Shown here one piece after another: positions 1 through 37,566 of a DNA stretch of 64,000 nt. The position numbers and the translations under genes are program-made. Below the pieces are notes generated by a model that worked only from the letters and a program-made list of their open reading frames with translations, had not been told where the DNA came from and made no database searches. The stretch spans positions 1 to 64,000 of the forward strand of contig CAIONS010000048.1 of assembly GCA_903859715.1 (NCBI GenBank). Reading direction: 5' to 3'. The stretch is from an uncultured Opitutia bacterium (GTDB lineage: Bacteria > Verrucomicrobiota > Verrucomicrobiia > Opitutales > Opitutaceae). How positions within the stretch are numbered: position 1 is the stretch's first letter; every line of letters begins with the position of its first letter.

Positions 1-22
1 CCGTCAGGTCTGTTCACGATTA

Positions 23-49
23 CGGCTCATCCGGAGGATTCGCCCTACC
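23..49 (-). repeat. REP family A, copy 1 (GTAG + hairpin), 3' of the RAYT gene
   Basis: A 27-base sequence identical to 525..551. Read on the minus strand it has GTAG followed by an imperfect hairpin: GGCGAATCC, loop TCC, GGATGAGCC, with a two-base mismatch inside the stem. GTAG plus a mismatched short palindrome is the known form of REP sequences served by RAYT transposases. The copy lies just downstream of the broken RAYT gene, in direct orientation with the copy upstream of it. Confidence 0.8.
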
Positions 50-65
50 ATTGAGCCAATGGGTT

Positions 66-509
66 TTATTTCGGCCAAAAATACGGCCAGTCCTCGGGCC
101 GCGAAACTAACCCCGCCCTGACAGGATTCAGTCGGATATAATCAGTCTTCGCCTCTTCCGATTCATCCGACCTCAGCCGGTGATCAAAGAAGCCGGTTTG
201 TCAGCGGATTCTAGCATTCTTGGTCTGATAAGATTTCCACATCCGCACCACCGTCGTAAGGGACTCCTCGCTCGGCACTGCAATCATCGCGTGAATGTGA
301 TCTGGCATCAGCAGGAACAGCTTCAGCCACCATCGCTGGGTGTCGTGGTAGTAGGCGGCCGACTTCAAAATTTTCGCCGCAGTATCAGGATGGCAAAGTT
401 GGTTTTGCCCGCGCGGTTCAGTGCAAAAGGTTACGAAATAGAGGGACCCGTCCTTGACCCACGGAGGTACATCGTGATGAAGCCGCAGGCGTGTGGGATG
501 TGAGTCCAT
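66..509 (-). pseudogene. REP-associated tyrosine transposase (RAYT, Y1 family), interrupted by an in-frame TGA
   Basis: RAYTs are single-domain HUH nucleases that cut and join at REP hairpins. Reading from ATG at 509, the frame encodes 102 residues with the HUH motif HIH (residues 71-73, in MPDHIH), then TGA at 203..201. Beyond the stop, in the same frame, the family sequence continues as QTGFFDHRLRSDESEE, then DYIRLNPVRAGLV with the probable catalytic Tyr at codon 124, and ends at TAA (68..66). Family members usually have Trp where the TGA lies, so one TGG-to-TGA change explains the break. Full length would be 147 codons, normal for the family. The short product would lack the catalytic Tyr. 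Identical REP copies flank the gene. TGA is an ordinary stop in the other genes here, so readthrough is unlikely. Confidence 0.85.
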
Positions 510-524
510 TAGCGTACTATGCCG

Positions 525-546
525 CGGCTCATCCGGAGGATTCGCC

Positions 547-551
<5 letters not shown>
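525..551 (-). repeat. REP family A, copy 2, overlapping the mpl stop codon
   Basis: Identical 27 bases to 23..49 and in the same orientation, so the two copies bracket the RAYT gene. On the minus strand the GTAG tetranucleotide sits at the very end of mpl and supplies its TAG stop (549..547); the mismatched GGCGAATCC/GGATGAGCC hairpin follows directly and lies between mpl and the RAYT start. Confidence 0.8.
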
Positions 552-1971
<1,420 letters not shown>

Positions 1972-8409: not shown

Positions 8410-8566
8410 GTAGCAGCCGACGTAAGGAGGCTGGGTTTTAATAATCGCAAAGACGCGAAGCCGCCAAGAACGAAGCAAAGTTCAGAGTGCATTCCTTTCG
8501 ATCGAACTTCGCCCCTTGGCGTCTTCGCGATTCAAATCAGATCAGCCTCCTTACGTCGGCTGCTAC
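8410..8566. repeat. REP family B inverted pair enclosing a second palindrome
   Basis: Outer arms: GTAGCAGCCGACGT then AAGGAGGCTG (8410..8433), and its exact inverse at 8543..8566. Inside lies a second, unrelated imperfect palindrome, AATCGCAAAGACGCGAAG... against ...CTTGGCGTCTTCGCGATT (about 8442..8533). The structure fills the gap between two convergent genes. The right arm reaches into the M23 peptidase gene and provides its TAG stop (8565..8563). Confidence 0.85.
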
Positions 8567-9609
8567 CTGGCCCCAAATAACTGCTGCAGCACCGTCTCGA
8601 GGTCCTTGCCGGGGACCCAGGCACCATGGCGCGACAGCACCACAGACTTGCTGCGTTCGCGGCGCACCAGCGCCGTGTTGACGTCCAGGATTGCAGGCTG
8701 GCCCGGCCTCAGTCCGATGGCCTCGGGGCCCGATAGCGGCGTCCACTTGAACGGGATGCCCGTCCAGTCAAAGGAGACTTCCCAGCCGCTCACCACGGCG
8801 GGCAGCGCCTTGGTCAGCAGCGCGGGGTAGCGCAGCACATAATCGGGCACCCGCGTGGTGCCGAAGCGCAGCCGCACCGCCGGCTCCATCTGCGCGAAAT
8901 ACTCCTGGAACGTGTTCACTTTCCGCGCGCGCCATTTGTTCAGGAAATCCAGCGGGTCAAAGCCCATCAGGTTCATGCCGTTCCACAGGCCATGGTCGTT
9001 GGCGCTGCCGAACTTCCGCGACGCGTACCAGAACTGGAAATCCCGCGTGACCATCACACCGATTTCAAAATGCAGGTGCGCGCGGTCGCGCGGGATGTTG
9101 CCGCTCGAACTGTGACCCATCACCGCGATGACCTGCCCGCGCGTCACCGGCATGCCGTTCCGCAAGCCCGGCGCGATCCGCGCCAGGTGCGCGTAGAGCG
9201 TGTAGACGCCGGGAGACTGGTTGGGATGCTCCAGCACGATGTAGCGCCCGTAATTGCTGTCGCCCGCCACCGAGTTGATGTGGCGCACGACACCGTCCAT
9301 CGCCGCGAATACATTGTCCGTCGGCTCACCGCGCCGGTCGCGGGCCACGCACTTGATGTCGATGCCCTCGTGAAACTGCGCGCCGCCGCTGCGCACGCCG
9401 CCGTAGCCGCCCGATTCCGGATCACCCGAACCGGCCTGCTGGAGATAATCGCTGATCGGCCGGCCCTCGGCCCACGCCGTGTTGGGCGTCGGCCAGGTAA
9501 ATTCCACGCGCTCCGCGGCGCGCGCCCTCGCCGCTACCGCCAGCAAAAGCACCAGGCCCAGGCGGATAATCGGTCTCACGGCCAGCGGGCCGGCCTCCGG
9601 GCGCCTCAT
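8563..9609 (-). CDS. M23-family metallopeptidase (LytM-type), exported
   Basis: A 348-residue protein with an N-terminal signal-like segment (IIRLGLVLLLAVAARARA) and an M23/LytM domain at about residues 75-200: FHEGIDIKC (first metal-binding His/Asp region), VFAAMDGVVRHI, GRYIVLEHPNQSPGVYTLYAHL, MGHSSSGN and AHLHFEIG (HxH). M23 enzymes cut peptidoglycan cross-bridges in the periplasm, or act as activators when degenerate; the metal ligands appear intact here. The C-terminal 150 residues are uncharacterised. The start overlaps the end of the DUF62 gene by four bases, placing it third in an operon hemW-DUF62-M23. The stop codon lies inside a REP. Confidence 0.85.
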   Translation of the reverse strand: MRRPEAGPLAVRPIIRLGLVLLLAVAARARAAERVEFTWPTPNTAWAEGRPISDYLQQAGSGDPESGGYGGVRSGGAQFHEGIDIKCVARDRRGEPTDNVFAAMDGVVRHINSVAGDSNYGRYIVLEHPNQSPGVYTLYAHLARIAPGLRNGMPVTRGQVIAVMGHSSSGNIPRDRAHLHFEIGVMVTRDFQFWYASRKFGSANDHGLWNGMNLMGFDPLDFLNKWRARKVNTFQEYFAQMEPAVRLRFGTTRVPDYVLRYPALLTKALPAVVSGWEVSFDWTGIPFKWTPLSGPEAIGLRPGQPAILDVNTALVRRERSKSVVLSRHGAWVPGKDLETVLQQLFGAR

Positions 9610-12859: not shown

Positions 12860-12928
12860 GTAGCAGCCGACGTGAGGAGGCTGATTTCGACTTTAACTCC
12901 CAGCCAGCCTCCTCACGTCGGCTGCTAC
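12860..12928. repeat. REP family B inverted pair
   Basis: GTAGCAGCCGACGT plus GAGGAGGCTG (12860..12883) and its exact inverse at 12905..12928, separated by 21 bases. The pair sits between the convergent lipoprotein and endonuclease/phosphatase-fold genes, just beyond the terminator. Confidence 0.88.
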
Positions 12929-17600: not shown

Positions 17601-17624
17601 GTAGCAGCCGACGTAAGGAGGCTG
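17601..17624 (+). repeat. REP family B, single copy
   Basis: GTAGCAGCCGACGT plus AAGGAGGCTG, matching the arms at 8410, 12860 and 36754, but with no inverted partner nearby. It lies 33 bases after dxs and 30 before the deacetylase gene, both on the plus strand. Confidence 0.85.
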
Positions 17625-19710: not shown

Positions 19711-20088
19711 ATGAGGCTGTTGCTCGATTCTCATGTGGTCGTGTGGTGGGCGGTCTATCCCGGCCGTCTGCGGACGGGTACGCGCGATGCGATCATCTCA
19801 CCGGAAAACGAGATCTTCCTCAGCGCCGCGTCCGTATGGGAGCTGGGGCTAAAAATCGCCCGCGGCAAACTGGCCTTGCCCGGGGACTACGCCCCGCGGT
19901 TGCTGGCGCATGGCTTCGAGGAACTGGCCGTCAACATCACGCATGCGGCACGCTCCACGACCCTACCCCCTCTCCATGGCGACCCGTTTGACCGGCTGTT
20001 GATCGCCCAGGCGCTGGAGGAAGGCCTGATGCTCGTCACGAGTGACCAGGCGATTCTGCGCTACGATGTACCGACGATGGAGGCGTAG
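19711..20088 (+). CDS. VapC-like PIN-domain toxin
   Basis: A 125-residue PIN-domain ribonuclease, the toxin partner of the Phd-type antitoxin. Acidic metal-binding residues are at Asp6 (MRLLLDSHVVVWW), Glu44 (SVWELGLK), Asp94 (HGDPFDRLLIAQA) and Asp112 (LVTSDQAILRYD). VapC enzymes usually cut initiator or other tRNAs or rRNA. All acidic positions are present, so it is probably active. Its TAG stop (20086..20088) is part of a GTAG followed by CAGGCTGAAGGCTG, reminiscent of the REPs elsewhere here, though weaker. Confidence 0.9.
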   Translation: MRLLLDSHVVVWWAVYPGRLRTGTRDAIISPENEIFLSAASVWELGLKIARGKLALPGDYAPRLLAHGFEELAVNITHAARSTTLPPLHGDPFDRLLIAQALEEGLMLVTSDQAILRYDVPTMEA

Positions 20089-36750: not shown

Positions 36751-36832
36751 TCAGTAGCAGCCGACGTGAGGAGGCTGGGTTTGAGCGCCTGCGTGTCAGT
36801 CCATCCAGCCTCCTCACGTCGGCTGCTACTGA
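36751..36832. repeat. REP family B inverted pair with 28-base perfect arms
   Basis: TCAGTAGCAGCCGACGTGAG continuing GAGGCTGG (36751..36778), with exact inverse at 36805..36832 and 26 bases between. It occupies the gap between convergent genes. The right arm overlaps hisA, whose TAG stop (36828..36826) comes from the GTAG. A folded transcript would form a very strong hairpin and could end transcription from both sides. Confidence 0.9.
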
Positions 36833-37566
36833 TCGGAGCCTGACTTGGCGATGGCCAGCAGATCCCTGAGCTCCACCCGCGCCTCGTAAAGCGCCTTGCC
36901 CACGATCACGCCGTCCAACCGGGCGTGACGCTGCGTCAGCTGGGCCAATGCGATCACATCCTCGCGACGGCTCACGCCCCCGCTGGCGATCACCTGGAAA
37001 TTACCCGCCTGCAACATGGCTTCCTGCGCGGGAAAGTTCGGGCCGGTCAGCATGCCATCCGTGCCAATATCGGTGTGGATAAGGGTGCGAACGCCCAGGG
37101 CATCCATGCGCCGCGCCAGCGCCAGCGCACTCATCCCCGCCGTACTCACCCATCCTTTGACCGCCACCTGGCCGTTCTTCGCATCGATGCCGACTGCGAT
37201 CTTTTCCCCGAAGGCCTGCACAAGTTCGGCCACGAAGGCCTCGCTCTCCGCGGCACGCGTCCCGATGACCACCCGGCTCACGCCAAAGCCCAGGGCCCGC
37301 TCGACCGCAGCCCGGGTGCGGAGCCCCCCACCCAGCTGTACCTTCATGCCCAGCGCAGCGATCGCCTGCACCACCGGAAGGTTCGCCGGCTCGCCCGCGA
37401 AGGCGCCGTCGAGGTCGACCACGTGCACCCAGTGCGCTCCTGCCGCCCGGAATTGCGCAGCCACGTCCGCGGGATTTTCCGCATAAACCGTCTCTTGGTC
37501 GGCGCGGCCTTGGGTGAGCCGCACGCAGCGGCCAGCCTTGATGTCGATGGCGGGATAGATGGTCAT
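36826..37566 (-). CDS. hisA: ProFAR isomerase HisA
   Basis: The 246-residue product is a complete (beta/alpha)8 HisA: IYPAIDIKAGRCVRLTQGR (catalytic Asp8), VHVVDLDGAFAG, LGGGLRTRAAVERAL, IHTDIGTDGMLTGPN (second catalytic Asp) and IASGGVSRREDV. It isomerises N'-(phosphoribosylformimino)-AICAR phosphate to the ketose in histidine synthesis. No other his genes are adjacent, so the pathway is dispersed. ATG 37566 is the natural start. The stop TAG and the last bases lie in the REP. Confidence 0.94.
   Translation of the reverse strand: MTIYPAIDIKAGRCVRLTQGRADQETVYAENPADVAAQFRAAGAHWVHVVDLDGAFAGEPANLPVVQAIAALGMKVQLGGGLRTRAAVERALGFGVSRVVIGTRAAESEAFVAELVQAFGEKIAVGIDAKNGQVAVKGWVSTAGMSALALARRMDALGVRTLIHTDIGTDGMLTGPNFPAQEAMLQAGNFQVIASGGVSRREDVIALAQLTQRHARLDGVIVGKALYEARVELRDLLAIAKSGSDQ

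Follow-up and report, generated by a model that had tools for sequence, protein, structure and literature searches.

GTAG-REP elements provide in-frame TAG stop codons to adjoining genes in an uncultured Opitutia bacterium and a congener

The window, a stretch of 64,000 nucleotides (positions 1 to 64,000 of contig C48 in source genome G000, a 3.18-Mb assembly of 71 contigs), contains three genes that end inside a GTAG-REP. The first is hisA (36826..37566, minus strand; NCBIfam TIGR00007, score above the cut-off), whose stop codon at 36828..36826 is the TAG of an F1-family REP, GTAG followed by CAGCCGACGTGAGGAGGCTG (36806..36829, minus strand). An inverted F1 partner lies at 36754..36777 on the plus strand, and in a computed fold the 82-nt strand from 36751-36832 forms, as RNA, a single hairpin of -62.4 kcal/mol with the hisA stop codon in the base of the stem. 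In another genome, G009, a REP that is single-copy there lies 1 nt behind the hisA stop. The second gene (8563..9609, minus strand) was initially annotated as an M23 peptidase, and the only NCBIfam models that it hits, those for peptidoglycan hydrolases, match weakly and score far under their cut-offs. Its stop, TAG at 8565..8563, lies in an F1 REP (8543..8566, minus strand) with an inverted partner at 8410..8433 on the plus strand. The third gene encodes an mpl-type ligase (547..1971, minus strand; TIGR01081 at 382.7 bits, slightly under the cut-off of 388.7), and its TAG at 549..547 belongs to a REP of a second family, F2 (GTAG followed by GGCGAATCCTCCGGATGAGCC; 524..550, minus strand). A RAYT-like remnant (Y1 transposase, PF01797; 210..404, minus strand) with an in-frame stop lies next to mpl, and a further F2 REP (22..48, minus strand) lies on its far side at the contig end. 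The two F2 REPs around the remnant (window 22-550) share the same orientation, and the nearer one gives the mpl stop. Direct reading of the DNA and our own gene caller agree on all three stops, as the initial annotation had proposed, and two families are indeed involved, F1 at hisA and M23 and F2 at mpl.

The remaining F1 copies of the window do not form stops. One (12860..12883, plus strand) has its nearest upstream stop 113 nt off, one (12905..12928, minus strand) lies 25 nt behind a stop, and a single copy (17601..17624, plus strand) has no called gene ending toward it within the range examined. F1 is therefore present as three inverted pairs and one single copy, the dimeric arrangement of REPINs or BIMEs, and the window holds nine GTAG-tagged F1 and F2 REPs in all, three of which are gene stops. 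A fourth, weaker case had been suggested at vapC and does not stand, since the stop (20086..20088, plus strand) reads GTAG without a REP behind it. The candidate element at this stop, GTAGCAGGCTGAAGGCTG, was rejected with only four matches (up to three mismatches) in the DNA searched, two of them in the window. An NCBIfam search with this ORF gave no match, so the name vapC is that of the initial annotation.

Across the source genome, F1 (GTAG followed by CAGCCGACGTNAGGAGGCTG) has 143 copies with up to two mismatches and F2 has 61 with up to three; a further family, F3, reads TGTAG followed by GGCGGGGTCGC. In a congener, G007, the main family, A, mostly reads AAGTAG followed by CGCAGGCGGCCCGCCTGC and has 361 copies genome-wide. 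As expected for GTAG-REPs, the 5′ GTAG precedes a short palindrome in 116/120 F1 and 55/61 F2 copies of the G000 sample (described below), and few of the tagged copies are intragenic (11/116 for F1, 8/55 for F2), making these high-copy, mostly extragenic elements. Matches listed for the exact F1 sequence include MAGs titled Opitutaceae, Opitutae, Opitutus and other Verrucomicrobia. In G000, at least 12 F2 copies lie within about 100 bases of contig ends (C4, C10, C12, C23, C24, C43, C47, C48, C64, C67, C68 and C69), suggesting that the assembly breaks at F2. Short tandem arrays of type GTAGCGAGTAGCGAG adjoin some A-family REPs in G007 (C19, loci L192-L196; C3, C6 and C23). G000 has one other PF01797 match, on C47, and none of the tested REP patterns occurs in its 3.3-kb locus. 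The RAYTs that have been studied require GTAG for recognition or cleavage (PMC8266576), and because these enzymes need the tetranucleotide, its constancy calls for no role in translation. The earlier idea that GTAG was chosen for providing a stop is thus unnecessary.

To count stops we used two samples, both REP-centred and non-random parts of their genomes. The G000 sample comprises 603 kb of stretches around REPs, including the window, with 556 genes called by our own caller, whose start positions are approximate. These stretches were picked around F1 and F2, with F3 and minor families counted only where they fell inside them. The G007 sample (465 kb) comprises 30 loci from the A search, four contigs rich in listed A copies and two loci from the hisA and M23 searches. 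Copies lacking GTAG were excluded (4/120 F1 and 6/61 F2; over all families, 93/346 in G000 and 99/216 in G007). The 120 sampled F1 copies were found by the core pattern and the 143 genome-wide copies by the tagged pattern; for A, the sample holds 98 tagged copies vs 361 genome-wide. The G007 core is a near-palindrome and was matched on both strands, and the F3 search pattern is an 11-mer that also matches non-REPs.

The REP TAG is the stop of the adjoining gene in 7/116 tagged F1 copies and 2/55 F2 copies of the G000 sample (together 9/171, three of them in the window), in 9/47 F3 copies and, over all families, in 19/253. In the G007 sample the figures are 28/98 for A and 29/117 over all families, and among 80 loci retrieved from other genomes through their F1 copies, 4/143 F1 copies are stops. 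The rate therefore depends on the family, and the three cases in 64 kb are a local cluster above the sample-wide rate. For comparison with chance we excluded intragenic copies (23 in G000, 9 in G007). Random intergenic placement predicts 0.46 stops for F1 and F2 together, and nine are seen. A second yardstick, set by how densely REPs occur 4-33 nt downstream of stops, predicts 2.13 stops over all families in G000 and 0.93 in G007, where 19 (P 2e-12) and 29 (P 6e-33) are observed. The claim that the window's three cases exceed chance therefore holds against both expectations, and also beyond the window. These counts already contradict chance or a gene-calling artefact, an account that we regard as very improbable. 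For 4/19 and 6/29 of the ORFs the DNA compared held no orthologue reaching the C-terminus, and some of these ORFs are short, but an orthologue aligns to within 12 residues of the C-terminus for 15/19 REP-stopped genes in G000 and 23/29 in G007, which supports 38/48. On C19 of G007 (44603/44891 and 68291/68394), the two ends of a single REP-bounded stretch provide the stops of two convergent genes.

The initial annotation had tied its proposal to a frequency above that of random placement next to gene ends. When every intergenic or stop GTAG is taken as an equal target, this comparison divides the genomes, with fewer stops than predicted in G000 (19 vs 32.2) and more in G007 (29 vs 12.5), so that the GTAG-target model fails to explain both. 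The same result bears on the possibility that GTAG is a pre-existing target and that stops reading GTAG are merely permissive insertion sites. In G005, a close relative of G000, the match of G000 C32:6683 has a GTAG end but no recognised REP, as this account would have it, and the match of C68:215764 has GTGTAA in place of the GTGTAG-REP of G000. Against these two sites stand the predicted numbers and the behavior of the RAYTs studied, for which GTAG is probably a guide and cleavage occurs at CT or CA (PMC8266576). We consider a pre-existing target improbable.

The phase in which coding frames meet the element is strongly biased. Among the frames that reach a REP GTAG, 48 stop immediately, 5 run on for up to 60 codons (one of which, G000 C52:4716, is an ORF reaching the contig end) and 9 are longer read-throughs. 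Compared with an expectation of one-third, the immediate stops give P ~5e-18 without the nine read-throughs and ~1e-12 with them. When a frame enters a REP in either of the other phases, the median run-on is 29-36.5 codons. Where the gene retains its own stop and the REP follows 4-60 nt later, the phases split 24/37/34 (n=95) and 6/12/14 (n=32), with no phase preference found (P 0.23 and 0.20). Together this suggests that insertion is blind to phase and that the survivors are filtered. Read-through frames over REPs or REP pairs were seen in G000 on C52, C33, C62, C23 and C27 (loci L116, L065, L082, L047 and L029). The 1343-codon open frame on C52 contains five tagged F2 copies, and similar cases are reported for O. 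terrae.

The last codon carries a signature of the element as well. Genes stopped by A in G007 end in AAG in 21/28 cases, vs 25/356 non-REP gene ends and 8/37 non-REP ends reading GTAG. All nine genes stopped by F3 in G000 have NTG as the last codon (9/9), vs 22/469 and 7/37 for the corresponding controls in that genome. The bases before GTAG are mostly AA in family A and always T in F3, and the same bases dominate ahead of GTAG where a copy does not stop a gene, which makes them a property of the element or of its general site preference. In TGAAGTAG the gene stop is a TGA whose GA fits the REP consensus GAAGTAG (G007 C6:23513, C19:43397, C22:77381 and C23:38811), which suggests that the A family may provide stops in a second phase as well.

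We compared REP-stopped genes with orthologues in which a hairpin test, crude enough that some scored as REP-less may hold a decayed REP, detected no GTAG hairpin. For G007, 52 such comparisons with G010, G001 and G003 gave 34 TGA, 14 TAG and 4 TAA. Length was unchanged in 14/52 of these vs 32/53 for non-REP genes (P 0.0008), an effect that is weaker when counted per gene (6/23 vs 15/28 unchanged, P 0.085). Orthologues of non-REP G007 genes ending in GTAG have TGA in 8/10 cases, a spectrum of stops not clearly different from that of the REP-less orthologues, so ordinary stop turnover could explain the shift in stop type. The equivalent comparison of G000 with G010 and G001 (n=23) gave 13 TGA, 6 TAG and 4 TAA, with the same length in 11. 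Where a G007 gene has a REP 1-40 nt behind its own stop, 17 orthologues have 8 TAG, 5 TGA and 4 TAA. Between the close pair G000 and G005, 11/15 REP-stopped genes end in GTAG in both genomes, and length is unchanged in 12/15.

At some of these ends the REP family changes from genome to genome. The mpl end has F2 in G000, a REP of a family we call TTATCC in G005, a related sequence in G011 and A in G007, and the ends at G000 C4:34275 and C9:285856 have F3 in G000 and the TTATCC family in G005. The different REPs share the stop at mpl and C4:34275 and lie one codon off at C9:285856 (G000/G005). A fourth gene of the 15, C32:36830, has another hairpin in G005. The TTATCC family has 63 exact copies in G005 and 6 in G000, and even if all 63 ended different genes, the expected number of shared sites would be only about 0.3 (15 x 63 / 2,900, where ~2,900 genes is an estimate from gene density in the called sample). 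The repeated use of these ends argues more strongly than any other result for a hot spot, or for one REP replacing another in place, and it fits the proposal that insertion is aimed at gene ends or stops, by sequence or by terminator structure, and overwrites the stop where it stands. A further 14 A copies in G007 lie 3-8 nt behind a stop, vs 9 at 13-31 nt, which points the same way. Directed insertion accords less well with the phase-blind REPs behind intact stops, with the rarity of F1 at stops (the 7/116 and 4/143 given above) and with median length differences to the G007 orthologues that span -4 to +10 codons from gene to gene. The suggestion in the initial annotation that insertion targets gene ends is therefore upheld as far as different families recur at the same ends, and is weakened by the phase-blind copies and by REP-less G007 orthologues that mostly have TGA and are often of another length. 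On balance we think it unlikely that targeting accounts for the REP stops.

A REP might also insert slightly downstream of a gene, with deletions then eroding the original stop and the spacer until the frame runs into the REP TAG, which would serve as a backstop. The M23 end is the single clear case that resembles such an intermediate: G005 reads AGG TAA TA followed by the GTAG of the REP and G000 reads AGG TAG, so the same REP begins 6 nt further in G005 and the 6-nt difference places the G000 stop inside the element. The G005 arrangement, a stop and then a REP, is a possible intermediate, and the change may have run in either direction. Among 11 G007 and 5 G000 sites inspected for remains of a lost C-terminus downstream of the REP, the longest truncation (G007 C22:60209) showed none beyond its REP pair, consistent with deletion up to the element. 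We give this route about the same low likelihood as targeting, and both are compatible with the explanation we prefer.

Any explanation has to account for four observations: REP TAGs pile up as stops, their phase is biased, the last codon carries the element's signature and REP-less orthologues mostly have other stops. We think it somewhat probable that REPs reach gene ends and that mainly those whose GTAG stops the frame are tolerated. GTAG-REPs would be small elements spread by RAYT transposases, with the 5′ GTAG retained because the RAYT needs it, and would accumulate at the 3′ ends of genes. Insertion, or a later small deletion, would let a coding frame enter the element, where one phase in three would hit TAG at once and the other two would run on for a median of ~29 to 36 codons. 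If frames that stop at once are tolerated and most of those in the other phases are lost, REP TAGs would pile up as stops, and families with fixed bases before GTAG would then also give the last codon, AAG for A and NTG for F3. We infer the action of selection, the order of events and a role for RAYTs in the G000 and G007 species. Evidence against such filtering comes from the different REP families at three G000/G005 gene ends, which a pure filter does not predict. The missing relic at C22:60209, the weaker per-gene length effect and the largely shared GTAG ends and lengths of the G000/G005 pair also count against it, as does the possible contribution of ordinary stop turnover. More tentatively, we speculate that REP families are portable gene ends, each a fixed last codon, a stop and a hairpin (Lys-stop for A; Met/Val/Leu-stop for F3), that succeed one another across species, set the C-terminal residue and possibly regulate translation.

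The initial annotation took the phenomenon to be undescribed, which is incorrect. Di Nocera et al. 2013 state, in section 15 of PMC3733652, that GTAG-REP termini "often provide" a TAG stop (labeled 'opal' there), so REP-donated stops were already known. A literature search that covered few subscription journals, with PMC2817692, PMC12306157, PMC8266576 and PMC3116915 among the sources seen in part, found no description of REPs donating stops to host genes besides PMC3733652. The one-line remark of 2013 is now quantified, with A ending a gene in 28/98 sampled tagged copies in G007, 21 of them with the REP-consensus Lys codon. The system offers a clean test of how REPs survive, by selection after insertion vs targeting, and natural constructs for the effect of a stop-codon hairpin on termination. 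For annotators, it is a warning that a mobile element may be partly responsible for the C-terminal residues and stop usage seen in REP-rich genomes.

The elements closely resemble the GTAG-REPs of Di Nocera et al., including those of O. terrae, a member of the Verrucomicrobia that is highly enriched in GTAG repeats (PMC3733652). They share the GTAG end, the short palindrome, the dimers, the position at gene ends and the intragenic copies, and here too adjoining genes end in frame at the TAG of a REP terminus. Unlike the accessible text of PMC3733652, our analysis gives stop counts, a phase test, the last-codon effect and an orthologue comparison. The inverted F1 pairs of the window are like REPINs (PMC3116915), and the F2 REPs flanking the RAYT-like remnant beside mpl are like the REPtrons formed by RAYT/TnpA-REP genes (PMC2817692, PMC8266576), in which REPs lie very near or directly downstream of the stop codons of RAYT genes (PMC2817692). 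Unlike the REPtrons described in the portions of those papers available to us, the RAYT frame of the window is broken and the REP-stopped genes are ordinary host genes. An earlier study cited in PMC12306157 reported ribosome stalling in E. coli at REPs lying no more than 15 nt from a stop. The arrangement here likewise places a hairpin on the stop or directly after it, and it differs from the E. coli case, as set out in the passages of PMC12306157 consulted, in that the stop belongs to the REP itself.
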